64,000 nt of DNA from a virus. How positions within the stretch are numbered: position 1 is the first letter of the stretch; each line of letters begins with the position of its first letter. The DNA lies in IMG/VR virus record IMGVR_UViG_3300042509_002293, positions 1 to 64,000 of that record. One strand, 5' to 3'. The position numbers and the translations under genes were made by a program. Below are positions 2,147 through 24,850 of this stretch, piece by piece. The notes beneath the pieces are model-generated. The model saw only the letters and a list, made by a program, of their open reading frames with translations. It had not been told where the DNA came from and did no database searches.

Positions 2147-2986
2147 ATGCTTGCAGGCAAACTCGGATTTTTCCGCGCACCGGCAACGCCCGCCGCCACG
2201 GCTGTCGACGGCAGCAACAACACCATCTCGCCGGTGGATTACACGGCGGACGGCGTCCAGTGGCGAGCGTTTATCTTTCACACTAGCGGCACGCTCACGT
2301 TCTCTCGCGGCGGGGAAGTCGAGTATCTCATCGCAGCCGGCGGTGGTGGTGGTGGCTCGCACTATGCTGGTGGCGGCGGCGCTGGTGGTTTGCGTACTGG
2401 CAGCGCCACCGTGATCGCACAGGGCTACGCCGTTACGGTGGGCGCTGGAGGCTCCGGGGCGGCCTGGAATGGCACGTTCGGTGTGCAGGGCGGCGACGGC
2501 AATAGCTCCTCCGCACTGAGCATCTCGGCGACCGGCGGCGGTGGTGGCGGTGCGAGAGGTCTGTCCAACCAGCAGCAACCGGGCCGGTCTGGCGGTTCTG
2601 GCGGCGGCGGCGGAAACAATCCATCGGCGGCCACTTCGGCGGGCAGCGGAACATCAGGGCAGGGCAACAGTGGCGGCACCGGATTCGACTCGGGCGGTAA
2701 CTCTGCTGGTGGTGGTGGCGGCGGCGCTGGCGGTGCTGGCGGCAACGCTGCCAGTGCGTCCGGAGGAGCGCGTGGCGCTGGGTCGTCGTCCTCCATCTCT
2801 GGCACGGCGACAACCTATTGTCAGGGTGGCGGCGGCTCGTCGTCGGGAACTGCTGGCATTGGCGGCGGTGCCTCCAGCGGGCGAGGCGCGACCGCGAACA
2901 GAGGAGGCGGTGGCGCTGGCGGAAACAATAGCGTCACCGGCGGCGCTGGTGGGAGTGGCGTCGTTGTAGTGCGATTTCGGAGGTAG
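2147..2986 (+). CDS. Glycine-rich tail fibre tip protein
   Basis: About 279 residues from the ATG at 2147; the open frame extends further upstream, but that part is antisense or shadow sequence overlapping the previous gene. Residues 1-60 contain VDYTADGVQWRAFIFHTSG and GTLTFSRGGEVEYLIAAG, the usual entry strands of phage glycine-rich domains. The following ~200 residues are GGGGAGG-type repeats ending GGSGVVVVRFR, the standard closing strand of this family. Such domains form polyglycine-helix receptor tips in some phage adhesins. Strong local G/C repetitiveness explains the long false open frames on the other strand. Confidence 0.75.
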   Translation: MLAGKLGFFRAPATPAATAVDGSNNTISPVDYTADGVQWRAFIFHTSGTLTFSRGGEVEYLIAAGGGGGGSHYAGGGGAGGLRTGSATVIAQGYAVTVGAGGSGAAWNGTFGVQGGDGNSSSALSISATGGGGGGARGLSNQQQPGRSGGSGGGGGNNPSAATSAGSGTSGQGNSGGTGFDSGGNSAGGGGGGAGGAGGNAASASGGARGAGSSSSISGTATTYCQGGGGSSSGTAGIGGGASSGRGATANRGGGGAGGNNSVTGGAGGSGVVVVRFRR

Positions 2987-2988
2987 TG

Positions 2989-3174
2989 ATGGAGAGGTTT
3001 TGCGTGCAGATCGTGGAGGGCGTCGTTGCTCGCGTCATAGTCTGCGACAGTGCCGAGTGGGCAGCCACCACGCACGGTGGCGAGTGGGTGGAGACGGACA
3101 CGCTGCCGGGGATCGGCTGGGTCTACATGGACGGCGAGATTGTTCCGCCGCCCGACGAGGCAGGGACTGCGTGA
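2989..3174 (+). CDS. Small protein next to tail fibre genes
   Basis: 61 residues, MERFCVQIVEGVVARVIVCD followed by GIGWVYMDGEIVPPPDEAG. The pattern 'VQIV-G-V-VIVCD ... GIGWxY ... PP' is a small protein type frequently found beside phage fibres, function unknown. The ATG overlaps or abuts the previous stop. A further 19-codon GTG frame overlaps its end (3171-3230) and then stops, just before the integrase remnant, so the operon may be truncated there. Confidence 0.5.
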   Translation: MERFCVQIVEGVVARVIVCDSAEWAATTHGGEWVETDTLPGIGWVYMDGEIVPPPDEAGTA

Positions 3175-5771: not shown

Positions 5772-6086
5772 GTGAATGAGGTGTCCGCTGCATCGAGTGG
5801 TTCTCATGGGAGATTTGAAATGGACGTTGTGGCTCGCATCAACCGCTGGCTTGAGGACGAGGATGCTGCCGACGCAGACGAGACTCTGCACGATGCACGC
5901 GACGAGATCGTCGCCCTTCGGGCGTTGCTGAAGCGGCATAGTGAGGCGGCGCACCATGCGGTCAAGATGATGGGCGAGTACGCAGAACAAAGCGGGTTTC
6001 TGCTTGGCGGACTGGAGATGGTGGCGGCCGGGCACACCACAGCCGACAAGGTGCTAAAGGTGCTCAAGGCGAAGTACCGGGACTGA
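5772..6086 (+). CDS. Small helical accessory protein, eroded leader
   Basis: 104 residues from the GTG at 5772, or 88 from the ATG at 5820. The bases around the start are homologous to those of the 5021 gene, but single-base changes destroy the ancestral ATG and shift the frame, so the leader is in decay. The body MDVVARINRWLEDEDAAD ... EIVALRALLKRHSE ... LLGGLEMVAAGHTTADKV matches 3547. The 5643-5771 stretch upstream holds no gene that I can support. Confidence 0.6.
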   Translation: MNEVSAASSGSHGRFEMDVVARINRWLEDEDAADADETLHDARDEIVALRALLKRHSEAAHHAVKMMGEYAEQSGFLLGGLEMVAAGHTTADKVLKVLKAKYRD

Positions 6087-8013: not shown

Positions 8014-8364
8014 ATGGCCGACTATCAGATCGTCCCGTCGCCACTCAACTTGCAATTCGTCCGTGGGGACGAATTCGGGATGCTGCTCGACTTCGACGTG
8101 GACCTTTCAGGTTACTCGTTCATCGCGGACATCTACGAGGTTGCGTCGGTGAGAAACGGCGTCGCCAGCAGCAGCGGCGTGCTCATGTCATTCACTCAGA
8201 CGCCGGTCGATCTCTCGTCTGGAAAGCTGAATCTGTCTCTCCAGGAGAACCAGACCGCAGCCTTCGACCTGACCAAAAGCTATCGCTGGTACCTGAGGTG
8301 GGTCGCCCCCGGCATTGTCACGAGGACCGTGCTTTCCGGCATTATTAGCATCGGGGACCCGTGA
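8014..8364 (+). CDS. Small virion/baseplate-type protein
   Basis: 116 residues. LNLQFVRGDEFGMLLDFDVD, LSGYSFIADIYEVAS and the later LNLSLQENQTAAFDLTKSYR follow the 'RGD-F ... DLSGYxFxAxI ... LSxxQTAAL' pattern of a beta-sandwich protein encoded just before tail fibres in many phages. The stop overlaps the ATG of the fibre gene. A role as fibre adaptor is inferred from that context. Confidence 0.55.
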   Translation: MADYQIVPSPLNLQFVRGDEFGMLLDFDVDLSGYSFIADIYEVASVRNGVASSSGVLMSFTQTPVDLSSGKLNLSLQENQTAAFDLTKSYRWYLRWVAPGIVTRTVLSGIISIGDP

Positions 8365-9815
8365 TGGCGGACATCAACGTCACAGTGTCGAACGGCACCG
8401 GAGGAACTCCCGTCAGCCTGACTGTCGGGGCGGGGATCGGCCCGGCTGCCATCGTGAGCGGGACCGCCACGACCGTGATCGGGGTCAACCCGATCGTGGC
8501 CGGGGCCAACATGACCGTCTCCACGACAGGAGGCGTGTTTTCGATCATCGGGCCCAGCGTGCCAGTCCAGTCTGTCCAGGGCAGGACCGGAAGCGTGGTC
8601 CTGACCCTCACGGACCTCACTGCGGCAGCCCAGACTCACACGCACTCGACCACCGAAGTCTCGGGTTTCACGGCGGCGGTGGCGGCCATCTCGCCAATCC
8701 AGTCTGTTCAGGGACGGACCGGGAACGTGGTCCTGTCCCTGGTCGACCTCACGGCGGCGGCCCAGACTCACACGCACTCGACGGCCAATATCGTGGGATT
8801 CACGGCCGCCGTGTCGGCGATCTCGCCCGTGCAGTCCGTGCAGGGTCGATCGGGGAGCGTCGTCCTGACCCTCGCCGACCTGACCGCAGCGGCCCAGGCC
8901 CACACGCACTCCACCACCGAGGTCTCGGGTTTCTCTGCGGCCGTGTCCGCCATTTCCCCCGTGCAGTCGGTCCAGGGAAGGTCCGGAAGCGTTGTCCTGA
9001 CTCTCACGGACCTCACAGCCGCAGCCCAGACTCACACGCACTCGACGGCCAATATCGTGGAATTCACGGCCGCCGTGGCGTCGATCTCGCCGATCCAGTC
9101 GGTTCAGGGGCGGACCGGGAACGTGGTCCTGACTCTCGCGGACCTCACGGCGGCAGCCCTGACTCACGGGCACTCGACGACTGACATCTCGGGGTTCACG
9201 GCGGCTGTGTCCGCTATTTCTCCCGTCCAGTCAGTCCAGGGCAGGTCAGGGAACGTCGTCCTGACCCTGACCGACCTCACGGCGGCGGCCGTTTCGCACA
9301 CGCACTCCACGTCCGACATCGTCGGAATCTCGACTCTTGCCGGGACTCCGGGGCCAGCGAACAAGCTCTCGATCGGCTTTGTGGTGACGGGCGCCGCTGG
9401 TTCCACGGCCACGGCCAGCATCACGGGCACCTCGCCGAACCAAGAGCTAAACCTCACCATCCCTCGCGGAGACCCGGGCGCCAGCGTGCAGGTCGCCGGG
9501 AGTGTTTCGAGTGCAATCTCGCTGCCGGCGGCCGGGAGCGTATCGCAGAATACGGCCTACGTTGCGAATGACACCGGGAATTTGCACATCTCCAACGGCG
9601 TGAACCAGTGGACCGACGTCGGCCAGTTCCGTGGGCAAAATGGGGCCAGTGGGCGAGAGGTCGAGTTGAGGTCCGGAGACGGGTACATCCAGTGGAGGTA
9701 CGCCGGGACCACTGCCTGGACGAACATCGTTTCACTTGCCTCGATCACCGGTGCGGCCGGCCCGCCGGGTGCGTCCGGAGGCATATCCATAGGAGCGCTC
9801 ATAGCGTTGTCTTGA
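8364..9815 (+). CDS. Tail fibre with six 43-residue repeats
   Basis: 483 residues. From about residue 65 there are six tandem copies of a ~43-residue unit: ISPVQSVQGRTGNVVLTL, DLTAAAQTHTHSTxDI, xGFTAAVSA. The HTHST element is the His-x-His type seen in fibres that bind metal along a trimeric axis. After the repeats come GTPGPANKLSIG, IPRGDPGASVQV and a C-terminal GAAGPPGASGG collagen-like stretch. The DNA repeats create long false open frames on the minus strand. The repeat number could vary between relatives. Confidence 0.8.
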   Translation: MADINVTVSNGTGGTPVSLTVGAGIGPAAIVSGTATTVIGVNPIVAGANMTVSTTGGVFSIIGPSVPVQSVQGRTGSVVLTLTDLTAAAQTHTHSTTEVSGFTAAVAAISPIQSVQGRTGNVVLSLVDLTAAAQTHTHSTANIVGFTAAVSAISPVQSVQGRSGSVVLTLADLTAAAQAHTHSTTEVSGFSAAVSAISPVQSVQGRSGSVVLTLTDLTAAAQTHTHSTANIVEFTAAVASISPIQSVQGRTGNVVLTLADLTAAALTHGHSTTDISGFTAAVSAISPVQSVQGRSGNVVLTLTDLTAAAVSHTHSTSDIVGISTLAGTPGPANKLSIGFVVTGAAGSTATASITGTSPNQELNLTIPRGDPGASVQVAGSVSSAISLPAAGSVSQNTAYVANDTGNLHISNGVNQWTDVGQFRGQNGASGREVELRSGDGYIQWRYAGTTAWTNIVSLASITGAAGPPGASGGISIGALIALS

Positions 9816-10956: not shown

Positions 10957-11214
10957 ATGAATCTTGAAAGCCCAGTGACGGTCCTGCGAGGCGAAGATCA
11001 GGCCACGTTTTCGGAACTCGACCTCACCGTCATCGACAACATGGCGAGGCGGGTGTGCCTAGTTCGGTTCCTGGGGTTCACCAGACCTCTCGTGCTCTGG
11101 TCTGGGGCCTCTTATGAGGCAGCGGGCGACTACACCCAGGCCCAGATCGAGGCCAGAGTTCGCGAGATCCTGGGCGAGAACCCGGGCGAAGTGCTCCAGT
11201 CGCTCTATGCCTGA
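10957..11214 (+). CDS. Hypothetical protein
   Basis: 85 residues, MNLESPVTVLRGEDQATFSE ... REILGENPGEVLQSLYA. It is small and acidic with a helical C-terminus (YTQAQIEARVREILG). It ends inside the start region of the HNH gene (8-base overlap). No family is recognised. Confidence 0.55.
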   Translation: MNLESPVTVLRGEDQATFSELDLTVIDNMARRVCLVRFLGFTRPLVLWSGASYEAAGDYTQAQIEARVREILGENPGEVLQSLYA

Positions 11215-11539
11215 GAGATTCAAGTTCTTCCGCCCCAAGAGGCCCAGGAAGCACAGGCCTGGGCCTGAATTCCATGTGGCCTATGGCGGGAAGAAATACT
11301 GGGCCGCCACCAGGAAGAGGATCCTGGTGAGGGACAACTGGCAGTGTCAGCACTGCGGGAGGGTCTGCTCCATGCCAGGGGAGGCCCAGTGTGATCACAA
11401 GAAACCCAAGGCCATAGGAGGGGATGATTCGGATGAAAATCTCCAGACCCTATGCCTGCCATGCCACTCCAAGAAGACCCGCGCTGAGCAAATGGCTGGA
11501 CTCCTGAAGCCATTGCAGCCAGAAGGGCACTCCAGGTAG
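11207..11539 (+). CDS. HNH endonuclease next to terminase region
   Basis: 110 residues from the ATG at 11207. The pattern is CQHCGRVC, then CDHKKPKAIGGDDSDENLQT and LCLPCHSKKT: two zinc CxxC pairs and the D-H...N...H catalytic set of an HNH nuclease. The N-terminus is very basic (RFKFFRPKRPRKHRPGP). HNH proteins beside terminase are part of the DNA-packaging cleavage machinery in many HK97-type phages, and this one lies just before the cos/pac candidate and the small terminase. Confidence 0.85.
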   Translation: MPERFKFFRPKRPRKHRPGPEFHVAYGGKKYWAATRKRILVRDNWQCQHCGRVCSMPGEAQCDHKKPKAIGGDDSDENLQTLCLPCHSKKTRAEQMAGLLKPLQPEGHSR

Positions 11540-12033: not shown

Positions 12034-12513
12034 ATGGGCCGACCCGCCATCCCCACCGCGATCAAGCTCGTCCGGCAGAACCCGGGCTGCCGCCCGATCA
12101 ACGAGGCCGAGCCCACACCTCCCCCCGCCGACCTCGCCCCGCCTCCGTCCCTGGAGGGCGTCGCCCTGGAGAAGTGGCACGAGATGGCCGCCCTCCTCTC
12201 GGGAATGGGCGTCCTCACCCAGGCCGACCGCCAGACGCTGACCCGCTACTGCATGATGCACGAGCAGTGGGACGCGATGGAGCGGCACTGCCGGGAGCAT
12301 GGCTCCACACAGATCACTTCGACCGGCTACAGCCAGATCACTGCGGAGGCAACTCTCGCGAAGTCCCTCAGGAAGGAACTCCTGGAGATTGAGCGTCAGT
12401 TTGGCATGACTCCGGCTGCCCGGTCATCCATGAAGGTGGCTCCGAGTGCCTCTGCCCCCCAAAATCCTCTTGCCGCGTTTGCCCAAAGCCGACGCAGTCA
12501 AGCAGGGGCTTAA
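12034..12513 (+). CDS. terS: Terminase small subunit, P27 family
   Basis: 159 residues from the ATG at 12034. MGRPAIPTAIKLVRQNPGCR is the classic start of P27-family small terminases. It is followed by PPPSLEGVALEKWHEMAALL, LTQADRQTLTRYCMMHEQWD and the C-terminal helix EIERQFGMTPAARSSM. It recognises packaging sites in DNA and delivers them to the large subunit. Its 3' end overlaps the start of the large subunit by about 68 bases. The open frame continues upstream of 12034, but without family resemblance. Confidence 0.9.
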   Translation: MGRPAIPTAIKLVRQNPGCRPINEAEPTPPPADLAPPPSLEGVALEKWHEMAALLSGMGVLTQADRQTLTRYCMMHEQWDAMERHCREHGSTQITSTGYSQITAEATLAKSLRKELLEIERQFGMTPAARSSMKVAPSASAPQNPLAAFAQSRRSQAGA

Positions 12514-14118
12514 GTTCTACTTCGACGAAGACAAGGCCGCCCACGCGGTCCAGTTCTTCGAGCAGTTCCTGACCCACTCCAAGGGTCAGTTCGCCGGGAA
12601 GCCTTTCTCGCTCCTCTCCTGGCAGAAGCATGACATCATCGAGGAGCTTTTCGGGTGGATGCGGGTCGACACCGACACCAGGAAGTTCCGGGTCGGCTAC
12701 ATCGAGGTGCCTAAAAAAAATGGCGTCTTGGCCCCTGCGGCTGGTTGCCGTGGGGGCCAAGACGACCATCAGGAAAGTCAACTCTCCTCAGCGGCATAGG
12801 CCTCTACACCCTAGTCGCCGACGGCGAGCAGGCGGCCGAGTGCTTCGGGTGCGCGACAAGTCGTGAGCAGGCCTCGATCGTCTACAAGCAAATGAAGGAA
12901 CTGGTCCAGGCCAGCCCCTACCTCTCCGAGATGCTGGAGGTGGTCGACTCCAGGAAGACCATCGCCTACATCCCCACGAACAGCTTCTGGAAGGTCATTT
13001 CGAGTGACGCCGGACGCCAGGAAGGCCTCAACATCCACTCGCTCTGCTATGACGAGATCCATTCCGCCCGTGACGACAGGCTTTGGCGCGCCGTCCGGTA
13101 TGGTGGAATTTCCAGAGCCCAGAGCCTCATCCTCGCCATTACGACAGCCGGCGTGGACCGGAACTCGATCGGCTACGAACTGCACGACCACGCCATGAAG
13201 TGCCGGCTCGACCCGCACTACGACGAGCAGTTCTTCGCCTTCGTGGCGGCAGCGGCCCCCGAGGACGACTACCGGGACCCGGAAGTCTGGAAGGCCGCCA
13301 ATCCTTCCTGGGGCGTGACGATGGACGAGGAGTCCTTTCGGGCTGACGTCCGGGACGCCGAGCAGTCCAACGCCCGGCTCGCCAGCTTCCTCCGATACAG
13401 GCTCAATGTCTGGACACAGGGAGACGGCAACAAGTACATCCGGCTCGACCAGTGGGACCAGTGCAAGGGCCCTTCGGGGCACCTCGGACCCGAGCGGGTG
13501 TGGTACGCCGGCCTCGACCTTGCCCAGACCTGGGACTGCAACGCCTTCGTGGCCGTCAGCAAGGGGCCGGACGACGTGTTCGACGTGCTCTGCCGGTTCT
13601 GGATCCCAGGCGAGAATGCAGGCCTTCGTTCCCAGAAAGACGGCGTGCCCTACACGCTGTGGGCGAAGGAGGAGAAGAACGGCCTGACGCTGACTCCGGG
13701 AAACACCTGCGACTACTCGTTCATCAAGCGGGACATCCTCCAGTTCTGCAAGGAGCGGACCGTCCGCCTGATCGCGGTCGACCCCCACAACAGCCACTAC
13801 CTCGTCCAGCAACTTCAGGCGGAAGGCCTGAGTGTGCAAGGATTTTCACAAGGGTTCGCCAGCATGAACCCTGGCACGAAACTTTTGAGCACCCTGATCG
13901 CTCAGGGCCGCCTGCGGACCAACGACAACCCCATCCTGAACTGGATGGCCGGAAACGCGACGACCAAGGAATCCCCCGAGGGCTACGTCAAGGTGGTAAA
14001 GCCAAGTGCCATGAGCCCTCTGAGGGTTGACGGGATTGTCGCCCTCATCATGGCTACCGCCATTGCGAACGAGGCTCCGGCTGCGGTCGCTGCCGAGCCG
14101 GAGATCCTGATCCTATGA
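12446..14118 (+). CDS. terL: Terminase large subunit, interrupted in the P-loop
   Basis: HK97-type large terminase (ATPase plus nuclease) encoded in two frames. Residues 1-93 run from the GTG at 12446 to GGC at 12722-12724, ending YIEVPKKNG. The rest resumes one frame back at AAG 12775 with KSTLLSGIGLYTLVADGE. Joined, the P-loop reads VPKKNGKSTL, as expected for the family, and the protein is about 540 residues, the usual length. Walker B is CYDEIH at about residue 184; nuclease Asp residues lie in YAGLDLAQT, IAVDPHNS and DGIVAL. Without a rescue event the upstream frame stops at 12797. See the bypass-like element entry; alternatives are a -1 frameshift on the A8 run or a broken gene. Confidence 0.85.
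12722..12774 (+). promoter_or_regulatory. 50-nt bypass-like hairpin element in terL
   Basis: Bases 12725-12774 (50 nt) interrupt the P-loop codons. They follow a Gly codon, GGC (12722-12724), and end in another, GGA (12772-12774). Immediately after the first Gly codon there is a perfect 11-bp inverted repeat, 12725-12735 with 12753-12763, topped by CGGC/GCCG (12738-12741 with 12747-12750) and a five-base loop. An A8 run (12713-12720) precedes it. Removing exactly these 50 nt restores both frame and motif. The geometry (Gly take-off, hairpin, 50-nt gap, Gly landing) mirrors T4 gene 60. Confidence 0.55.
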
Positions 14119-17100
14119 GTCGAGAAGAGAACGCCGCACTCAGCGACATTGTCTGGACACCCGCACGGGGCGAGAACGAGCCGGAGCTTCGCAGCATCTC
14201 CTGGAACAACCTCCTCCTCTCGGACGAGGTGTTCGGCGGGAAGTTCCTGACTGCCGCCGAGATTCGGATCAATCCGGAGACTGCGCTTCAGTCGACCGTG
14301 CTCCTGGCCTGCTGCCGGATCCTCGCCGAAACGGTTTCGGTCCTTCCCCTCCACGTCTACCGGAAGCTCAAGAACGGCCACGAGGAGATTGCCGAGGACA
14401 TCCCCCTGGCCCACGTCCTCGGGTTCGCTCCCAACGGGTGGCAGACGAAGTTCGAGTTCTTCGAGCAGGTGATGATGAACCTGACTCTCTGGGGGAACTC
14501 CTACACCGAGATCAAGTCTGGCAAGTACGGGTCCGTCACCGAACTGAACAACCTGCACCCGAGTAACATGCGGGTCGAGCGGCTGGAGAACGGCCGGCTC
14601 AAGTACACCTACAACGACCCGCAGACTGGTCGGGCCCTGGAGTACACCCAGGATCAGGTCATGCACATCCGCTGGACGCCCCAGCCGGATGGCGTGAAGG
14701 GCATGATGCCCGTCGAGATCGCTCGCGACGCCATTGCCCTGGCCCGCGCGTGCGAAATCTACGCCTCGAAGTTCTGGGCGAACATGGGCCGCCCCGGCGT
14801 GGTCCTCCAGACGGATGGCGCCATCTCGGCGGAGACGGCCGAACGCCTCCGGGACAACTGGGAGCGAATTCATAGAGGCGTGTCCAACGCCTATAAAACC
14901 GCGATCCTCACCAACGGGCTCCGCGTCGAACAGTTCGGCGCCACGAATACCGACAGCCAGTACCTCGATGTAAGAAAATTTCAGGGCGAGGAGATCGCGA
15001 GGTGCTACCGGTTGCCGTTGCACCTTATTCAGGGGCAGTCGGGCGGCAACCTGGAAGTCCAGGGCCGCGAGTTCGTCGACTACACGCTCATGCCCTGGCT
15101 CGCCCGCATCGAGCAGGCGATCAGTCGGTCGCTCATCTACGACGACGCCACCTACAAGGCCCGCTTCGACGTGCGTGGCCTGCTCCGTGGGGACAGCGCG
15201 AGCCGGGCGAGCTACTACTCCACGATGATGGGGCTCGGGATTTTCTCGATCAACGACGTGAGGCGACAGGAGGGGATGGCCCCGCTTGGACCCGACGCCG
15301 ACAAGCACTTCGTGGCGATGAACCTCCAGACGCTGGAGGACGCGGTCAAGCCGAAGCCCGACCCCTCGCAGATGCCGGGCGCTCCGCCCCCCGCCCCTGG
15401 CGGCCCGCCGAGCCTGCCCGAGGTCAAGCCCGGGAAGGCTCCGATGGAGTCACCCAAGGGCGAGGCCTCGGTGAAGAAGCTCCCGGAGAAGGCCTCGGCC
15501 GAGGCTCGCGAGCTACTGCCCCAGGACGAGAAGCTCGAAGAGGCTCAGCAGGAGATCGCGGAGGAGGACGGGAAGTGGGAGAAGGAAGCGGCCCACTACA
15601 TCGAGAAGAACCCGTTCGCCGCTCGTGGCATCAAGTGCCACAACTGCACGCACTACTTCGAGGAGGCCGGGTGCAAGATCGTCCGTGGCCTGATCGCGGG
15701 CGACGCGATCTGCAAGCTGTGGGTGATCCCGCCTGAGAAGATCGCCCCGGAGCCCGAGCAGCGGGCGTTCTGCCCGACGGGAGAGGGCAACGGCATCAAG
15801 AATGACTGCTCCCCAGGCGGCAGCTATCCGGTGGCCGACTCTATGCCTCGCGAGGTCGAGGCTGGTCACCCAGCCCTCGCCGCGAGAGCGCCGTTCAGTC
15901 CGGTTCCAGAGGGCAGTGGGAACTCAGCCTTTGCCGTGCCTCCGTCTGACTCGGACCTGTCTCAGGCGTTGATTGGGTCGAACAAGACGAAGGGCACGAA
16001 GATCGGCAAGGCCAGGGAGCTTCCGGAAGGGACTCCTGTCGCCCTTCGCATCGACATCCCGGCGTTCAATCACTCAACCGAGAGGATGGGGAAGGCGGTA
16101 TACGCCATCACCATTCACGAAGACAAGGGCGGCAAGTCGTTTGGCAGCCCGATCGGATACGACTCGATGGCCCGCCTCTCCGGACCGGTCAGGTTTGAGG
16201 CGAAAGAGAACGAAGCCATCCGCGTGGCGACAGGCGAGTCCACGAAGACACCTCTCGCGACCGTGAAAGGCAAGATTTCGCAGGATCGCACGATCCCGAA
16301 GGACGTGGATTCGTGGACCCCTGTCGGGTACGACCCGAAGAAGGCCGCCTACTTCTACGACAAGAGGACCGGGCAGGAGGTGAAGAGCGGAGTCGACGCA
16401 CTGAGCGTCGGCAATACGGTCTTCACCCGCAGGCCACAGTACGGCGACCGCAACGTCAAGGAGCACTACCGCTCCGCCGACGAGATGTTCGCGAGCGACT
16501 CGTGGGGCCTAGAGTCCCGTGGTTTCTGTCCCACTGGAGAGGGCGGCGGGATCGACAACTCTTGCGGTCGCGGAGACTCGTCAGGAGGAGACTCGCCCGA
16601 CGGGCCCGAGCCAAAGCGTGCCTCCACTCGCGAGGTCCTCGATGAAATCCTTCGGAGCATCGAGGAAACCGGCGGATATTCGGTTCACCCAGTGACGGCC
16701 GAGAGTCCCACGACCGGATTCATGTGTTCGACGGTCCCAGGTGCCGAGAAGATTATCGACGGCAAGGATCAAGTCACCGAGGCGGTCGTCGACGCCTACT
16801 TCGATGAGCACCGGGACTACCTTTCTTCGCGGCCGAAGCTACACTTAGGTGGTTGGATTGACGGGTCTGACGGGAAGGTCTACCTGGACCTCTCGGAGAG
16901 GTTTGAGACGCAGGAAGAGGCCGAGAAGGCTGCGGTCGAGCACAACCAGCTTGCGATCTGGGACATCGCCAACAAGAAAGAGATCAGGATCAAGAATGAG
17001 CGAGCAGCCGAAGAAGATGGTGAGGTTCGACTTCAAGCCCGGCGCGACCTCGAAGGAGATCGCCGAGGCGATCGAGCGGGCCAGGAAGAAGGTCGTTCAG

Positions 17101-20100
17101 GAGTACGCCGAGGCGAAGGCCAAGGCGGATGCGGATCGCCAACTGGGCGAGTAGAGTCTCGCGAAGGCTCGGACTGCGGCCGAGACGACGGCGGAAAGTT
17201 CGGCCCTGGCAACAAGTGCCAGGAGGACGCCGGAGACGGCGAGCAGGAGTCCAGTGGCGGCGACACTGCCACTGCCACTCTGGCGCCGCCTCAGGTCCAC
17301 CCCGGCTCGCCGTCTCACGAGGGCCGCGTCTCTGCTCTTACGACCGGCTCCCTGCTGGACGGAAGCGAGCGTCTTGACGTCCCGACGATCCGTGGCCGTG
17401 TCCTTGAGACCGACCTGTCTCAGGCACTGACCCAGCGGGCCATCGCGGCCCACGGCGGAAGGGTCATCGACATAAACGACCGCGTGAGCGACGCGGACAT
17501 GGACGTCTGCTCCGACGCGCTGGCCGAGGATCTCGACCGGGCCGCAAAGGACCTCGGGCGTCATTCGGGCTGGTACTCCGAGGACGTTGGCCGGGCTGTT
17601 GAAATCGCCAGGAGCATGCCCGGGAACGAGAAGATCGGGGACGGCACTCGCGACGGCGAGCTTCACGACTTCGTTTTCAGCACGGCCCTCGGGATTCTCT
17701 CCCAGGAAAACACGGTCCCACAGAATGCCCGATACGCAGACGCGATGTATCGGAACTGGGTTCAGACCGGCAGCCTGATCATTCCCGAGGAACACCACTC
17801 GGCCCTGGGAAGAAGCTTCAACGCAAAGGCATTCGAGGTCGTCCAGACACTCGCCGACAGGCATGGGTGGGACGACGTGATGAAGTTCTTCTCCAAGTCC
17901 GACACTGTCGGGAACCTCGTGAAGACTGCCAACACGATGCTCCCCGACTCGCCGTACTCGCTCGGCGTCAGCAATGAACTCGTGTCGACGCGGGTGCCGA
18001 CGTTCGCGCTGTTCGGCCCCAAGATCGGCGCCTTCACCCATGCAGTCGCCAACCGGGAGCGAGCCGACGATGCTTTTGACTTTGTGGTCAAGGATCGGTG
18101 GCTCATGCGTCAGGCTGGCTCCATCTTCGGGACTCTCATGTCGCCGACGGACGGGGAGAAGTCGTCCGAGCATATGTCGAGAGTCCTGGATAGCATCAAG
18201 GGCCTTCGCACAGGAAGCCCCCTCCTTCACGGCCTGAGCGCTTCGGAGGTCAAGGCGAGCCTCCAGGAGGCCATCCGGCTGAAGACAACGCCGGACGACG
18301 ACTCCCCCGCGATGGAGTACATCCGGAGGACGGTCAAGGCTTACGCGAAAAGCTCAAGCTCGACAAACTCCACATACGCCGACAAGACTGAGCGGAATCT
18401 CGCGGCCAATAACGCCTTCAAGAACAGAACGCAGATCCTGATCGCCCCAGGGAACGGAACGCAGTCACTAAACCTTCACCGTCTCTTCGAGGAGGCGGCG
18501 AAAAAGTCTGGACGAGGTAACGTCTGCGAGGCGCAGGCGCTTGGGTGGGTGGACACGCAGCGTCTCTGGCAGAGCCTGGGCTATAAGCTGAAGACTCCGC
18601 CGGATCAGAATACGTTTAGCTCCGCGTTCTCTGCGCTCGCGTCCGGTAGGTCGGCCAGCGGAAGAATCACGGACATCGCAGCGGAGGCGGAAAGGCAACG
18701 CCGCGAGGCGGCACAGGCCAGCGGCAGGAAGTCTCGCCGAGACGCCACTGGCTCGGATGAGTGGGATTCCACCCGGGACATCAATGCAATCGGAGAGGAT
18801 CCGCAGATTCTTTTCAACGAGTCGCTGAGCGATCCTGATACCTTTAATGCGTTGCTTGAGCACATCAGCGCGTTGATCTCTCGCGACTCCTCGTCCGAGC
18901 GTCGCGCCTTCTGCCCCACCGGCGAAGGCGGCGGTGTGAAGAACGACTGCCCCCCCAGCGAGGGCGGCAGCGGTGGCGACGAAGATGACGACAAGGGCGG
19001 AGACATCGCAAAGGCTGACGATGACTCTGGGCCTCGCCCATCCTCCGGCCCCGAGATCAAGATCGGCGACAAGCCCGAGGAGATCGACCGCCGCCTGGAG
19101 GCTATGGGCATCAAGCAGGACGACGCCATCGGCATGGTGGGCGGAAGCCGCGACGGAACCTACGTCTTCGTCCGCCGCGACCACGATCGCGACGGAGGCG
19201 ACGGCCTCCACATTGAGACCACCCGCGACGTGGCCGGCGTGAAAGACGGCCTGTTCAGCCAGTCCGTCGTCTACAACGCTGGCCCGCCGCAGTCGCCTGA
19301 GCTTGTCGTCGATCACAAGCTCATGGACGTGAAGACCGACGTGAGCCGTGACCCCGAGAAGAGGCACGCCGCCGCTCGCGAGTTCTTCCGAATTATGACC
19401 GACAGCGTTCAGGAGTCGCTCAAGCGAGGAGTCTCGAAGATCACGCTCAACGCCGCCGGCGACCCCAAGCAGGCCCGCGACGGCATGTTCCGTGGGTACA
19501 CGATCTGGCCCCGGATGGGATTCAACGCTCCGATCCCGAACCACATCCGCAACAAGCTGCCGCCCGACCTGGGGCACTGCCGCACCCTCCTCGACCTCCA
19601 CGCGACCCCGGACGGAACGCGGTGGTGGAAGAAGAACGGCACGGACCTCGACGTCCAGCTTGACCTGACCAAGGCCGACAGCCCGCAGATGCAGGTCTTC
19701 GGTCGGTTCGTTCGTCACTTCGAGCGTGACCGCCGAGACCTTGCCTATGGGACCGGAGACGAATGGCTCTCGCCGGCCGACGAGGTCAAGCTCGACGAGT
19801 TGTGGCAGGAGGTCTGGGACGAGGGCCTGCTCGACGACTACACGGGCGAGGACGAAGACTTCAGGGTTTTGGAGAAGCGGGCCTTCTGCCCCACCGGCGA
19901 AGGCGGCGGGGTGAAGAATGACTGCTCGCCAAACGACGAAGGTGGCGGCGATACGGCCACGGCCCCCAGGCCGAACACTATGCCTAAGGCGAAGTACGAC
20001 GACCCCAGGAACAAGGAGTCGTGGCTGAGCACCGGAGGGGATTTTCACCCGTTCGATCGGGCGAAAGAGCCGGCCGATCGACTGAAGTCTCCGATCGGCT

Positions 20101-21284
20101 TCAATACCCACGACTTCTGGGCCAAGAAGCACGGCGTGGACGGCGGAGAGCCCGAACTGCTCGGCAAAGGCTGGATGCGGGTAACTGCTTCTGGCCGAAC
20201 GCTCTACCTCAGCAACTCCAGCGGCAATCCCCCGACCGATCGCCAGCGAAAGGTTGCGATTGACCACGCCATCGCGACGGACAAGTACGACGACATCGTC
20301 TTCGATGCCGGCTACGGCAAGCAGCCCAGGACGATCTGGAGCAAGAGGTCGAAGAAAGTACGAGGCGAGTCTCGTGCCTTCTGCGCGACAGGCGAAGGCG
20401 GCGGAATCGACAACTCGTGCGGCGCCGGCGAGAAGATGGCCGCCGACAAGGACTCCGGGGGCGGATCTTCTTCTCGATGGGGCGGGAAAGAGGAGAAGTG
20501 GGGCCGATCGAGCGAGACAGAAATCTGGACTCCGGGCAAGCCGCTCTTCCCCGGGGCCGAGAGCCTTGCCTCCATCAAGATCACGAGGCCAAACGACGTC
20601 CGGGGCATCATCGAGGACGGCCTGAAGATGAAGATTGCGGACGCCGTACTGGCCTCTGGCCCGGTAGCGGATTCCGCAGATCGATCGAGCATCACCCGCC
20701 CTCGGCTTGAGATTGTCCCAACCGGCCACGGCATCGAGATGCGGTGGACTTCAATGGGCGTCGCCACCGGAGAGGGCTTCAAGGGCGAGGAGGAGCAGTT
20801 CAAGAGTCAGCCGGGGACCGCCGTGAAGGCTGCCGCAGCCTCTCGCGACCTCTGGATCACGAATCAAGGGCCGGTCCTTAACATGGGCGGATTCTTCATT
20901 CATCCAGACTTCCAGGGCAAGGGCTTGGCGCTTGAGTCTGTGGCCAAGTCGTCGTCCTCGGGCGTCATCCGCATGGAAATGCAGGCCGAGCGATTTGATG
21001 CGGATGACCCGAATCTTCGCATGACCGGATACAAGGTGTGGCCGAAGTACGGATACGACGCCCCACTCTCTCTCGTCCGTGGGACTCTGAGGTCTCAGGA
21101 CCAGGAAATCCCCAAGGAATTTTCTGGTGCCAGGACTTTGGCCGACATTTTCCGCATGCCGGGCGGCCGTGAGTGGTGGTCCCAAAGCGGCGATTCGATC
21201 CGGCTCGTCTTCGACTGCCGCCCCAGAAGCAAGAGCGTCGAAACTCTGCTAAAATTGCAGGACCGTTACCGCAAAGGGAGGTAG
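14115..21284 (+). CDS. Portal protein fused to a string of cargo domains
   Basis: 2389 residues in one uninterrupted frame; a usual HK97 portal is about 400. Residues 1-400 are the portal (ALQSTVLLACCRILAETVSV, FFEQVMMNLTLWGNSYTEI, FQGEEIARCYRLPLHLIQG). A Cys cluster follows at about 506-540 (CHNCTHYFEEAGC). Then come segments separated by Cys motifs at residues 552, 804, 1020, 1599, 1924 and 2089. Segment 605-800 resembles a polyvalent-protein associated domain (VALRLDIPAF, AAYFYDKRTG). Segment 835-965 has HLGGWIDGSDGKVYLDLS. Segment 1065-1590 resembles phage DUF7178-type proteins (GPKIGAF, DRWLMRQ). Segments 1630-1900 and 2120-2389 are GNAT-like (GYTIWPRMGFNA; GYKVWPKYGYDA). ATGA overlap with terL. 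The domain names are by resemblance. Confidence 0.85.
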   Translation: MSREENAALSDIVWTPARGENEPELRSISWNNLLLSDEVFGGKFLTAAEIRINPETALQSTVLLACCRILAETVSVLPLHVYRKLKNGHEEIAEDIPLAHVLGFAPNGWQTKFEFFEQVMMNLTLWGNSYTEIKSGKYGSVTELNNLHPSNMRVERLENGRLKYTYNDPQTGRALEYTQDQVMHIRWTPQPDGVKGMMPVEIARDAIALARACEIYASKFWANMGRPGVVLQTDGAISAETAERLRDNWERIHRGVSNAYKTAILTNGLRVEQFGATNTDSQYLDVRKFQGEEIARCYRLPLHLIQGQSGGNLEVQGREFVDYTLMPWLARIEQAISRSLIYDDATYKARFDVRGLLRGDSASRASYYSTMMGLGIFSINDVRRQEGMAPLGPDADKHFVAMNLQTLEDAVKPKPDPSQMPGAPPPAPGGPPSLPEVKPGKAPMESPKGEASVKKLPEKASAEARELLPQDEKLEEAQQEIAEEDGKWEKEAAHYIEKNPFAARGIKCHNCTHYFEEAGCKIVRGLIAGDAICKLWVIPPEKIAPEPEQRAFCPTGEGNGIKNDCSPGGSYPVADSMPREVEAGHPALAARAPFSPVPEGSGNSAFAVPPSDSDLSQALIGSNKTKGTKIGKARELPEGTPVALRIDIPAFNHSTERMGKAVYAITIHEDKGGKSFGSPIGYDSMARLSGPVRFEAKENEAIRVATGESTKTPLATVKGKISQDRTIPKDVDSWTPVGYDPKKAAYFYDKRTGQEVKSGVDALSVGNTVFTRRPQYGDRNVKEHYRSADEMFASDSWGLESRGFCPTGEGGGIDNSCGRGDSSGGDSPDGPEPKRASTREVLDEILRSIEETGGYSVHPVTAESPTTGFMCSTVPGAEKIIDGKDQVTEAVVDAYFDEHRDYLSSRPKLHLGGWIDGSDGKVYLDLSERFETQEEAEKAAVEHNQLAIWDIANKKEIRIKNERAAEEDGEVRLQARRDLEGDRRGDRAGQEEGRSGVRRGEGQGGCGSPTGRVESREGSDCGRDDGGKFGPGNKCQEDAGDGEQESSGGDTATATLAPPQVHPGSPSHEGRVSALTTGSLLDGSERLDVPTIRGRVLETDLSQALTQRAIAAHGGRVIDINDRVSDADMDVCSDALAEDLDRAAKDLGRHSGWYSEDVGRAVEIARSMPGNEKIGDGTRDGELHDFVFSTALGILSQENTVPQNARYADAMYRNWVQTGSLIIPEEHHSALGRSFNAKAFEVVQTLADRHGWDDVMKFFSKSDTVGNLVKTANTMLPDSPYSLGVSNELVSTRVPTFALFGPKIGAFTHAVANRERADDAFDFVVKDRWLMRQAGSIFGTLMSPTDGEKSSEHMSRVLDSIKGLRTGSPLLHGLSASEVKASLQEAIRLKTTPDDDSPAMEYIRRTVKAYAKSSSSTNSTYADKTERNLAANNAFKNRTQILIAPGNGTQSLNLHRLFEEAAKKSGRGNVCEAQALGWVDTQRLWQSLGYKLKTPPDQNTFSSAFSALASGRSASGRITDIAAEAERQRREAAQASGRKSRRDATGSDEWDSTRDINAIGEDPQILFNESLSDPDTFNALLEHISALISRDSSSERRAFCPTGEGGGVKNDCPPSEGGSGGDEDDDKGGDIAKADDDSGPRPSSGPEIKIGDKPEEIDRRLEAMGIKQDDAIGMVGGSRDGTYVFVRRDHDRDGGDGLHIETTRDVAGVKDGLFSQSVVYNAGPPQSPELVVDHKLMDVKTDVSRDPEKRHAAAREFFRIMTDSVQESLKRGVSKITLNAAGDPKQARDGMFRGYTIWPRMGFNAPIPNHIRNKLPPDLGHCRTLLDLHATPDGTRWWKKNGTDLDVQLDLTKADSPQMQVFGRFVRHFERDRRDLAYGTGDEWLSPADEVKLDELWQEVWDEGLLDDYTGEDEDFRVLEKRAFCPTGEGGGVKNDCSPNDEGGGDTATAPRPNTMPKAKYDDPRNKESWLSTGGDFHPFDRAKEPADRLKSPIGFNTHDFWAKKHGVDGGEPELLGKGWMRVTASGRTLYLSNSSGNPPTDRQRKVAIDHAIATDKYDDIVFDAGYGKQPRTIWSKRSKKVRGESRAFCATGEGGGIDNSCGAGEKMAADKDSGGGSSSRWGGKEEKWGRSSETEIWTPGKPLFPGAESLASIKITRPNDVRGIIEDGLKMKIADAVLASGPVADSADRSSITRPRLEIVPTGHGIEMRWTSMGVATGEGFKGEEEQFKSQPGTAVKAAAASRDLWITNQGPVLNMGGFFIHPDFQGKGLALESVAKSSSSGVIRMEMQAERFDADDPNLRMTGYKVWPKYGYDAPLSLVRGTLRSQDQEIPKEFSGARTLADIFRMPGGREWWSQSGDSIRLVFDCRPRSKSVETLLKLQDRYRKGR
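16996..17154 (+). CDS. Nested small ORF inside the portal fusion
   Basis: 52 residues in the +1 frame relative to the portal fusion, starting MSEQPKKMVRFDFKPGATSK and continuing EIAEAIERARKKVVQEYAEA. It looks like an ordinary helical protein. Over the same bases the portal frame gives an Arg/Gly/Glu-rich string (ARRDLEGDRRGDRAGQEEG), which looks like out-of-frame translation. The start overlaps the end of the preceding cargo domain in ATGA style. It may be a former separate gene swallowed by the fusion or a true overlapping gene. Confidence 0.4.
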   Translation: MSEQPKKMVRFDFKPGATSKEIAEAIERARKKVVQEYAEAKAKADADRQLGE

Positions 21285-21286
21285 GC

Positions 21287-21475
21287 ATGGGCGACGAAAA
21301 GATCGGCTGCGATTCTGACCGGGACGATGCCGTTGACGCGGCGTGGGAAGAAATCCAGAAGGAGGGCCTGACTGGCGAGTCACCGACTCAGGAGGAGTGG
21401 GACCGCTGGGCGGCCGAAGCCAACGAGAGGAAGAAGGCCAAGGATGGCAACGCCGGAGAAGTACAGTCACATTAG
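21287..21475 (+). CDS. Small acidic protein before protease
   Basis: 62 residues, MGDEKIGCDSDRDDAVDAAW ... TQEEWDRWAAEANERKKAK. AAAGGGAGG at 21273-21281 gives a strong ribosome site for the ATG at 21287. It is acidic and helical, and overlaps the protease start by 32 bases. No family is recognised; small acidic proteins here may be head assembly helpers or unrelated. Confidence 0.6.
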   Translation: MGDEKIGCDSDRDDAVDAAWEEIQKEGLTGESPTQEEWDRWAAEANERKKAKDGNAGEVQSH

Positions 21476-23042
21476 CTTCACGCCCCCGTCGGGGGTTCGC
21501 AGGGAAGCGGAGTACGGACTGAAGCTGCGTCGCGAGCATGGCCGTGGCGGCACCGCCGTCGGCATCGCCCGCGCCCGGGATCTGTCGAACGGCAGGGAGG
21601 TGTCGCCGTCGACCGTCAAGCGAATGAAGGCCTACTTCGATCGCCACGACTCGGACCAGCAGGCCGAGGGTTTCAATCGCGGCGACAAGGGCTGGCCCTC
21701 CAACGGCTATATCGCCGCCAAGCTCTGGGGCGGATTCCAGAGCGGCTATTCCTGGGCAAAGAAGGTCGTCGCCCAGATGGAGGCCGCCGACGGGAAGGAG
21801 TCGTCTCGCTCTTATAGTCCGGATACGGAAACCCGTAGCCTGAACGGCATGGAAACCACCGAAAGCCGATTCGTCGCCACCGACACGCCTGAGCCCGAGG
21901 CCACCGAGATGCCCCAGGTCGAGCGGCGGTATCTGGCCTCCGCCGGTACTGAGAGCTCAACCGAGGGCACGCTCGGCGTCGAGCACCGCGCCGACCCGCA
22001 GACGGGCGAGAGGCGGACGTACCTTGTCGGGTATGCGGCAAAATTTGGAACTGACTCTTTGCTGCTCGGGGACTTCATCGAGCAAATTGCCCCGTCCGCA
22101 TTCGAGATCGTCACCAAGGGAAAGGACCTCGAAGGAAATCCCCTAGAGACTCGCGGCCTTTTCAATCACGACCCGAACCACCTCATCGGTCGGTTTCCGA
22201 ACACGATGAAGCTCACGGTCGACAAGATCGGCCTGAAGTACGAGATCCTCCTTCCCGAGAGTCGGCAGGATATCGCCGAAATGGTAGCTCGCGGGGACCT
22301 CAAGGGATCGAGCTTCAGCTTCGTCGTGGCAGAGGGCGGGGAAAAGTGGACCCGCGAGGGCGGCAGGAGCCGCCGCCTCGTCACCCGCATCAAGTCCCTC
22401 CTGGATTGTGGCCCCGTCACATACCCGGCCTATAAAAATTCTTCCGTTGCCGTCGCCAAGCGGAGCTACGAGCAGTTCATCTCGGCGCAGGATCCGAAGC
22501 CAGCCGAGCCGCTGAAGCCGAAGACCGACGTCGCTGCGGAGATGCGGAAGTACCAGGAGTTCATCGCCGAGCGACGCGGCTTCTGTCCGACGGGCCCAGG
22601 CGGCGGCGTCGACAACTCGTGCGGCGCGTCCGCCAGTGGTGGAGATTCCGGAAAATACAAAGAGTGGAAGAAGGGCGATCACCTCGACAAGTCGAAGGAG
22701 AAAGACGCCCAGGACTTCCTCGATAAGGCCCGAACTGACCAACTCGCCCGTGGTGGCAAGGACGGCGGAAAGTCCGACGACGGCGGCGGCGTGCAGACCT
22801 GGAGCAAGGGCGACCACTTTCCCTGGACGGCCAAGCAGGTCGGCGACACCGACGGCTACGTTCAGGGCCTGCACCCGGATGGAAGCAAGACGGAGAAGTA
22901 TCCGTTCGCCGGCGGCAAGACGGCCGACGCCTACGCGAAGCTCTCCGAGGAGTTGAAGGGCCGGGTCAAGAAGGACAAGAGGTCCACCGATCCGTCTGCC
23001 GTCGCATCGGAGATGCTGAGGTTCCTCAAGGACCGCCGGTAA
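21444..23042 (+). CDS. HK97-family prohead protease with extra domains
   Basis: 532 residues. Residues 1-115 are an N-terminal domain often found before such proteases (FTPPSGVRREAEYGLKLRRE, GTAVGIARARDLSNG, GWPSNGYIAAKLWGGF). Residues 180-340 are the HK97 prohead protease, with His242 in GLFNHDPNHLIGRF and Ser289/290 in LKGSSFSFVV as the catalytic pair. Residue 380 starts the Cys motif FCPTGPGGGVDNSC, followed by a ~140-residue Lys/Asp/Gly-rich tail with paired WSKGDHFPW and WKKGDHLD elements. The protease cleaves scaffold and capsid N-termini. The tail is unusual and shares its Cys motif with the portal fusion. The stop overlaps the next ATG. Confidence 0.9.
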   Translation: MATPEKYSHISFTPPSGVRREAEYGLKLRREHGRGGTAVGIARARDLSNGREVSPSTVKRMKAYFDRHDSDQQAEGFNRGDKGWPSNGYIAAKLWGGFQSGYSWAKKVVAQMEAADGKESSRSYSPDTETRSLNGMETTESRFVATDTPEPEATEMPQVERRYLASAGTESSTEGTLGVEHRADPQTGERRTYLVGYAAKFGTDSLLLGDFIEQIAPSAFEIVTKGKDLEGNPLETRGLFNHDPNHLIGRFPNTMKLTVDKIGLKYEILLPESRQDIAEMVARGDLKGSSFSFVVAEGGEKWTREGGRSRRLVTRIKSLLDCGPVTYPAYKNSSVAVAKRSYEQFISAQDPKPAEPLKPKTDVAAEMRKYQEFIAERRGFCPTGPGGGVDNSCGASASGGDSGKYKEWKKGDHLDKSKEKDAQDFLDKARTDQLARGGKDGGKSDDGGGVQTWSKGDHFPWTAKQVGDTDGYVQGLHPDGSKTEKYPFAGGKTADAYAKLSEELKGRVKKDKRSTDPSAVASEMLRFLKDRR

Positions 23043-24850
23043 TGAGTGCCGCGACGGACTGCCGGATCGCGAGCCTGCACGCCTTCGCCCAGGCGAGGGC
23101 GATGGGATCGGCGACGAATGCAGGTGGCGGAGCAGTCTCCGGCGGAGCCGACTGCGGGCGGGATTCGGACGGGAAGTTTGGCGCTGGCAACACCTGCCGC
23201 ATCGGAATCAATATCAACGACTCTACCCAGGCCTTCACGACGCAGATTCTTGCCGGCCAGAAGACGATCGAGACTCGGCCAACAAACTCGCTTCGCCCCT
23301 ACGTCGGCAAGACGGTCGGAATCGTTCGGACTGGCCAGGGCAAGGCCACGCTCGTGGGCACGATGAAGATCGGCGAGCCTAAGTTCTACAAGACGAAGAA
23401 AGACTTCGACGCGGACCGCAAGAAGCACCTCGTCTCCCCGGGCAGCCCGCACTACATCACGGCCGCCGGGAAGTACGGTTACCCTCTCTCCGAAGTGCGT
23501 CCCGTAAAGCCCATCGAACTCGACACGAAGGGGATCGTCGGGAGGGTGATCGCGAAGTCGAGCCGCAGCGAAGAGCTTGAGTATGACCTAGATGGAGTTG
23601 AGCTTCGCGCATTCTGCCCCACGGGCGAAGGCGGTGGACTCGACAACTCATGCGGCAGCGGAGAGACAGCCTCTACGCCGCCGGAAAAAACTCAGAAGCC
23701 AAGATGGATGGGTGCCGTAGACGCGGCGGGTGAGACCAAGCACGGAACGTGGTTCCTGGAGAAGAACGAAGACGGGAGCAAATCGCCAGGACACGACGAA
23801 GCCACGTCCCACGTTGTTAGCCTTGTTGGCGGCAAGGATGAGGTTAAGGCGTTCGTGTTTGCTGACGCTCACGATGATCGTCTCTACATCAACTACTCTC
23901 AGGTTGCGGAGCCTCATCGCGGCAAGGGAGTTTACAAAGAGCTTCTTTCGTCGCTGCAAGAGCAATTCACGATTCATTCGGACGAACAGCACAACGTCGC
24001 CACCGCCGCAAAAAAGGCTTACGAGTCGCTCGGCGCGAGGCTGAATCAGTACGGGCAGTACGTCCTCGAACGGAAGCGTCGCGATTCTCGCGGCTCATCC
24101 CTCGGCGCTCGCCACGCCAGCCTCCTCGCCTTCGCCCAGTCTCGCGACTGCGGGCGAGACCCGGACGGCAAGTTCTCGTCCGGCAACACCTGCGCCGGTG
24201 GAGTGGCCGCAGACGCCGCCAAGGGGGCCATCAAGGGCGCCGCCGAGGGCGGGCTGCTCGGCCTCTGGGTTGCTGGCCCCCCGGGGGCCAAGACCGGTGC
24301 GGTCGCTGGGGCCGCTGTCGGGGCCGCGAAGGGGATCTACGACAATCAGATGCGGCCGACCCGCGTGAAGAAGGCGATCGACAGGCTCGGCCTCACGGAC
24401 CAGAAGGTCGGGAGGCTTGTCGAAAAGCTCGGCGGCACCCCGGAGTCGTCGGCGAACGCGAAGCGAGGCGTTCTGACCCTCACGATTCGAGACAAGGACA
24501 ACAAGAAAACCTTCCACGTCGAGGTCACGAAGAAGGGCGTCACCGTGTACCCCAGGCGGGCAACCGGGGAGTTGAGCGGCAAGGAGATCGCCCGGATCAA
24601 GCAGGTCGCGAAGGACCTGTCCCCGCGCCCGGTCAGCGTCACAGTCAAGCAAAGCTCGTCCGCCTATGTGGCCAAGCTCGTGAAGAGCGGCTTCAAGGTG
24701 ACCGCCGGCAAGGTTGCCGGCACGCTCGTCGCGAACTATGTGGTCCCGACGGCGATTGGGCTTGCGGTCACCGCCTCGGAAGGGGCGGCGGCCGCAGCGG
24801 GAGTCGCGGCGGCCAAGGTCGTCGCCAAAATTCCGAAGAAGCGTTCGTAA
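23042..24850 (+). CDS. Multi-domain cargo protein (ASCH-like, GNAT-like, glycine-zipper)
   Basis: 602 residues. Cys motifs at residues 37 (DCGRDSDGKFGAGNTC), 191 (FCPTGEGGGLDNSC) and 369 (DCGRDPDGKFSSGNTC) split it into three parts. Residues 52-185 resemble an ASCH/PUA-like domain (ILAGQKTIETRPTN, GKTVGIVRTGQGKA, ITAAGKYGYPL). Residues 210-345 look like a GNAT acetyltransferase with the acetyl-CoA loop RGKGVYKELL. Residues 385-602 begin with an Ala/Gly membrane-like stretch (GAIKGAAEGGLLGLWVA, GAVAGAAVGAAKG) and end with a long hydrophobic Ala-rich tail. SLLAFAQSR elements precede two of the motifs. Probably a virion or ejected protein. Confidence 0.7.
   Translation: MSAATDCRIASLHAFAQARAMGSATNAGGGAVSGGADCGRDSDGKFGAGNTCRIGININDSTQAFTTQILAGQKTIETRPTNSLRPYVGKTVGIVRTGQGKATLVGTMKIGEPKFYKTKKDFDADRKKHLVSPGSPHYITAAGKYGYPLSEVRPVKPIELDTKGIVGRVIAKSSRSEELEYDLDGVELRAFCPTGEGGGLDNSCGSGETASTPPEKTQKPRWMGAVDAAGETKHGTWFLEKNEDGSKSPGHDEATSHVVSLVGGKDEVKAFVFADAHDDRLYINYSQVAEPHRGKGVYKELLSSLQEQFTIHSDEQHNVATAAKKAYESLGARLNQYGQYVLERKRRDSRGSSLGARHASLLAFAQSRDCGRDPDGKFSSGNTCAGGVAADAAKGAIKGAAEGGLLGLWVAGPPGAKTGAVAGAAVGAAKGIYDNQMRPTRVKKAIDRLGLTDQKVGRLVEKLGGTPESSANAKRGVLTLTIRDKDNKKTFHVEVTKKGVTVYPRRATGELSGKEIARIKQVAKDLSPRPVSVTVKQSSSAYVAKLVKSGFKVTAGKVAGTLVANYVVPTAIGLAVTASEGAAAAAGVAAAKVVAKIPKKRS

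Follow-up and report, generated by a model that had tools for sequence, protein, structure and literature searches.

A hairpin insert in the terminase P-loop of uncultured phages is a probable programmed ribosomal bypassing element

Introduction

To our knowledge, efficient programmed ribosomal bypassing in bacteria and phages essentially rests on a single gene, gene 60 of phage T4. A hairpin in the ribosomal A site impedes the binding of A-site tRNA, and in gene 60 such a hairpin blocks RF1 and induces bypassing (PMC7282821); the sliding is processive up to 56 nt (PMC11194080). The gene 60 insert is thought to protect against a homing nuclease (PMC5009743). In the portion of the same source that deals with phage Hau3, a gap in the terminase gene is attributed to bypassing and reported only as likely; this case is linked to a UUA codon and involves a much shorter gap than the one analyzed here (PMC5009743). 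The P-loop of the large terminase subunit (TerL) is already known as a hot spot for inteins (PMC5050341).

We analyzed a stretch of 64,000 nucleotides (the window) from the 96,079-base virus record IMGVR_UViG_3300042509_002293, in which a 50-nt gap (12725-12774) splits the terL gene within the codons for Walker A. The arrangement resembles T4 gene 60 in that a phage gene contains a gap of about 50 nt, which would be left untranslated, with a hairpin at the take-off site and a Gly take-off codon matched by a Gly landing codon. Unlike gene 60, the element comes in lengths of 46-51 nt, has an Asn/Asn version and resides in terL. With the byp elements of Magnusiomyces/Saprochaete mitochondria it shares the character of a short, mobile-looking insert that is skipped in translation (as we propose for terL). 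The mitochondrial byps are found at 81 positions in 12 genes of one mitochondrial genome, whereas the terL element occurs once per phage record, at one site, and in contrast to the byps has a strongly conserved hairpin. It shares the TerL P-loop hot spot with the TerL1-a/b inteins of mycobacteriophages (PMC5050341), but TerL inteins are in-frame and removed at the protein level, whereas the hairpin element codes for nothing. A search of the open literature returned no paper describing a terL hairpin element.

Results

The 5' part of terL (12446-12724) encodes the N-terminal ATPase part and ends in ...YIEVPKKN-G, with a PHROG terminase large subunit match extending over 12446-12796. Read on in the 0 frame (12446-12799), the sequence becomes ...YIEVPKKNG VLAPAAGCRG... 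and terminates after 117 residues at a TAG codon (12797-12799). The 3' part (12772-14118) covers the ATPase from Walker A onwards and the nuclease (PF03354 TerL_ATPase, PF20441 TerL_nuclease) and lies in the -1 frame relative to the 5' part. The upstream ORF matches positions 178-235 of phrog_9 and the downstream ORF positions 235-669, and the two are thus adjacent pieces of one terminase profile. The sequence AAAAAAAAT (AAA AAA AAT, Lys-Lys-Asn; 12713-12721) directly precedes GGC (12722-12724), the proposed Gly take-off codon. The gap is counted as in T4, beginning after the take-off codon and including the landing codon. It consists of a 17-bp RNA hairpin, assigned by covariation and minimum free energy (12725-12741 paired with 12747-12763 around the loop TGGTT, 12742-12746), of a spacer, GACCATCA (12764-12771), whose sequence and length vary between alleles, and of GGA (12772-12774), the proposed Gly landing codon, which is GGN in 31 of the 32 Gly-class inserts. 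Deleting the gap gives back NGKST, and the TerL reading picks up again at AAG 12775, followed by TCA. All of these features lie on the plus strand. The original prediction had located the gap, the GGC before it, the GGA at its end and the 0-frame stop at 12797 correctly, and its statement that gap deletion restores the P-loop is true in the window and in relatives. It had also placed a hairpin directly after the GGC, where we find it, but with a stem of 11 bp rather than 17 bp.

The gene for the small terminase subunit, terS (PF05119 Terminase_4), is found at 12034-12513 and an HNH endonuclease gene (PF01844) upstream of the terminase genes at 11114-11539, both on the plus strand. The ORF at 14115-21284 (2389 residues) has a phage portal domain and, after it, about 1900 residues that match no Pfam entry. 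A RAFCPTGEGGGxxNxC-like motif recurs several times in this ORF, and motifs of a similar kind are seen in 23042-24850 and in the ORF of the prohead protease (21444-23042). In another ORF (8361-9815), a unit of about 43 residues (AISPVQSVQGRSGSVVLTLADLTAAAQTHTHSTTEVSGFTAAVS) is repeated many times in tandem; this ORF may be tail-fibre-like, as hinted at by a weak match to PF12789 phage tail repeat.

We gathered related inserts via the TerL protein, via the hairpin core and via the coding pattern 'I-E-x-P-K-K-N-G then base other than A', the last of which carries no bias about a hairpin. Together with that of the window, 36 distinct inserts were recovered, all at one terL site, from a large family of uncultured phages. 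All matches in the coding-pattern scan were hairpin inserts, except for one unrelated sequence (L237). Three further IMG/VR records (L003, L004, L005), each with its own metagenome identifier, contain the window allele in identical form. Because of these identical copies and of the 36 inserts at the same site, the observation is not an artefact, and an assembly error, a concern raised at the outset, or a chance occurrence is ruled out. A search for the hairpin in other phages had also been suggested; among isolated phages, none matched the element. When IMG/VR was scanned with the hairpin core, other hairpins came up, but the element was seen in no gene besides terL. A covariance model (CM) search of 24 records located the full-length element at most once per record and always in terL, which rules out a host repeat or palindrome family.

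The closest cellular TerLs come from a Phycisphaerales metagenome-assembled genome (48-49% identity), in which the genes are intact. Among 392 genomes from the phylum of this relative, the sole match is L257 (G249:C47:216900-216956), a terminator-like hairpin located 3' of a stop codon; its stem resembles that of the element with a score of 39 bits. Terminator-like hairpins of this type are a possible source for such GC-rich hairpins.

Gap lengths in the 36 alleles are 46 (5), 47 (11), 48 (7), 49 (3), 50 (6) and 51 nt (4), and the residue classes 0, 1 and 2 modulo 3 hold 11, 8 and 17 alleles, respectively. The gap hence belongs to no fixed reading frame, and no single shift fits. Deletion of the gap regains NGKST and the P-loop in 36 of 36 cases, with L033 requiring that the take-off Gly be retained. 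In 21 of the 36 alleles, including all 11 with a gap length divisible by three, a stop in the KKN codons plus insert closes the frame that would rejoin the 3' part of terL. In 19 of 36 alleles the 0 frame meets a stop at codon 7-8, in the loop region; this is the case in all 11 with multiple-of-three gaps versus 8 of the 25 others (Fisher p 1.5e-4, kinship not corrected).

Take-off and landing codons are synonymous in 35 of the 36 inserts, with all three bases identical in 20 and the third bases differing in 15. The pair is Gly/Gly in 31 alleles, with one GGN before the hairpin and a second at the gap end (third bases differ in 11), and Asn/Asn in four (L072, L075, L080, L088). In the Asn class no GGN precedes the hairpin; AAT adjoins it, the gap ends in AAC and the GGN of the P-loop follows. 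The element here sits one codon upstream, and take-off and landing codons have both switched to Asn. The sole non-synonymous allele, L033 (5947-6000), combines a GGC take-off with a TGC landing codon. We searched for Ala (GCN) and Gln-context versions and for inserts in PKKQG or PKKNA contexts, and found none.

The A-rich sequence AAAAAAAAT precedes 27 of the 36 unique inserts, and intact alleles mostly read AAGAAGAAC. In independent tree pairs the A-rich context is tied to the insert (AAT, p about 0.008; AAAAAA, p about 0.03), and the A8 run is absent in L039, L072, L075, L080, L088 and L124. The preference for AAA AAA AAT may stem from a part that these A-rich codons play in the mechanism, from flanking DNA transferred along with the element or from what the element requires of its target. 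Three features of gene 60 (PMC5009743) are lacking in the terL element: the UAG after the take-off codon, the KKYK signal and the 5' stem-loop. The codon after take-off is a sense codon in 36 of 36 inserts, a KKYK-like peptide 25-30 residues before take-off is absent from the upstream ORF of the window, and an alifold analysis of 35 upstream 60-mers revealed no conserved pairing and thus no conserved 5' stem-loop. We found no Shine-Dalgarno sequence before the landing codon that is consistent across alleles.

Each insert forms a covarying RNA hairpin of 17-20 bp, whose first base immediately follows the take-off codon. It is much longer than the short A-site hairpin of gene 60 and, unlike that hairpin, does not include the take-off codon. 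The hairpin in the window has two G-U pairs and a 5-nt loop, and the surrounding 131-nt region folds with -66 kcal/mol (z = -5.7, 0 of 200 shuffles as stable); gap minimum free energies range from -34 to -48 kcal/mol across all alleles. In an alignment of 35 inserts, 98.2% of the cells in the 17-bp stem are paired and 9 of the 17 pairs show changes on both sides. Stem covariation is 0.303 compared with 0.176 after shuffling (0 of 500 as high), and sliding the partner strand by a single column makes the signal collapse. The stem has many G-U pairs, which are retained, and the window scores 79 bits with the CM on the coding strand versus 33 bits on the other strand. Selection therefore acts on a coding-strand RNA fold and not on a DNA palindrome. 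No Rfam family matches at E <= 1. The insert in L124 (near 2953-3003; also in L232) contains a stem of quite different sequence (GCTGCCCCCCGC...) in the same placement, which suggests either deep divergence or an independent origin.

Both halves of terL are under purifying selection, with dN/dS values between insert-bearing relatives of 0.06-0.33 for the 5' part and 0.01-0.27 for the 3' part, and the 96-kb record contains no second terL. Close relatives, which the original prediction had pointed to as informative, indeed lack exactly the insert (L148 beside L087, L132 beside L075, L028 beside L020, L031 beside L044). On a TerL tree of 90 rows the insert is patchily distributed, which takes 18 changes or more, 12 of them forced by well-supported branches according to a count that predates the correction of one row label. 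Gain, loss or transfer is therefore frequent, and the site-specific element is probably mobile, as judged from this distribution. Upstream HNH nucleases had been taken as a hint to mobility, but HNH homologues are found at 22 of 25 insert loci and also at 13 of 17 intact loci, and the upstream HNH gene thus neither supports HNH-driven mobility nor counts as an element-linked endonuclease.

Inteins interrupt TerL at GK|ST in L017 (1-983), L043 (ending at 6000) and L188 (ending at 1923), two codons from the hairpin site, and a LAGLIDADG domain is matched in the L017 intein. The TerL of L043 differs very little from those of the empty loci L028 and L031 and of the hairpin-bearing loci L020 and L044. 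Empty, hairpin and intein states thus share this one terL hot spot. By analogy with the protection ascribed to the gene 60 insert, we hypothesize that the hairpin may shield the terL site against inteins.

Discussion

Our comparison suggests that the interruption is probably a cis-acting programmed ribosomal bypassing element in terL. Bypassing fits best because the gap length is independent of frame, take-off and landing codons switch together, the hairpin covaries, relatives with empty sites exist and terL is under purifying selection. The original prediction, according to which terL is made by ribosomes hopping over a byp-like insert, thereby agrees best with the comparative data from 36 alleles. 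Once the ribosome has the take-off codon in its P site, the A-site codon would be where the stem begins, and the hairpin in the A site would hinder binding of the A-site tRNA. The peptidyl-tRNA could then release the take-off codon, and the ribosome would slide past the hairpin; all 36 gaps are shorter than the 56-nt sliding range of gene 60. The same tRNA may re-pair a few nucleotides past the stem, where it meets the synonymous landing codon, two of three bases being enough, and decoding would restart at the following codon (AAR in the Gly class, the Lys of Walker A) to yield an uninterrupted TerL. Ribosomes that do not jump would stop in the loop or shortly after.

Removal of the gap from the transcript would be another way of obtaining a continuous message. 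A minimal hairpin intron that a phage or host enzyme cuts at the base of the stem and religates would restore the frame exactly at every gap length, a 17-20-bp hairpin is plausible as an RNase substrate, and the position is a hot spot for elements. Such excision predicts the same DNA pattern as bypassing, codon synonymy excepted, and by sequence alone the two are inseparable, so that bypassing stands as the probable reading. We nevertheless regard RNA excision as unlikely, as there is no match to an Rfam family and the Gly and Asn classes have no common boundary nucleotides; what they have in common is a synonymous codon pair in register. Excision would leave a single exonic copy of each codon, but both copies are retained. 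Gaps of 46-51 nt are also shorter than any self-splicing intron we know of. We prefer bypassing mainly because the codon rule would be needed for the re-pairing of one peptidyl-tRNA but not for RNA excision, and it is from this rule that we infer bypassing. A gap-free message could also arise at the DNA or transcription level, by programmed deletion between short repeats or by an RNA polymerase that skips the hairpin. The hairpin does lie between short direct repeats (GG..GG, AA..AA), but these are only 2-3 nt long and in codon register, and L033 keeps just GC. Here, too, the G-U pairs and the strand-specific scoring point to a coding-strand RNA fold, and we consider an event of this kind very improbable.

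Hairpin-stimulated -1 frameshifting (or polymerase slippage) on the A8 run would produce a TerL with about 17 extra P-loop residues. The position of AAAAAAAAT before most of the hairpins and a -1 frame that is open through the insert in the window would be in line with this. As a general mechanism, frameshifting is refuted by the gap lengths, which fall into all three classes modulo 3, and by the stops in relatives, the -1 cases L006, L034, L037, L042 and L019 being among the 21 alleles in which the restoring frame is closed. Several alleles moreover miss the A8 run, and the resulting TerL would have an insertion within Walker A, which together leaves this explanation extremely improbable. The short 0-frame product would also be expected if the insert simply inactivated terL, either in defective phages or in phages with terL complemented from elsewhere. 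Against this stand the strong purifying selection on both halves in many insert-bearing lineages, the lack of a second terL in the record, the covariation of the hairpin itself and the identical alleles in several metagenomes, and we judge inactivation to be highly improbable.

Beyond the bypassing of terL itself, the element could be viewed, more tentatively, as a site-specific parasite of the terL P-loop, which would be spread by recombination and would hide the site from inteins. For the full picture, in which cis-acting non-coding mobile elements on the terL P-loop survive by ribosome hopping with Gly or Asn landing, do without a stop codon and without the peptide signal of gene 60 and act as rivals of inteins, we see the arguments as evenly balanced.

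If bypassing is indeed used, the single case of gene 60 would be extended to a comparative system of 36 sequence-distinct elements plus relatives with empty sites. Length, loop, spacer and wobble base vary across these elements, and the hairpin flush with the P-site codon and the synonymous landing codon are constant, so that the minimal requirement for ribosome release and re-pairing would become directly testable. In L033, a Gly at the product junction would test tRNA re-pairing. Gene finders would take such terL genes for broken, when in fact an essential motor gene would tolerate an insert at its ATP-binding site.
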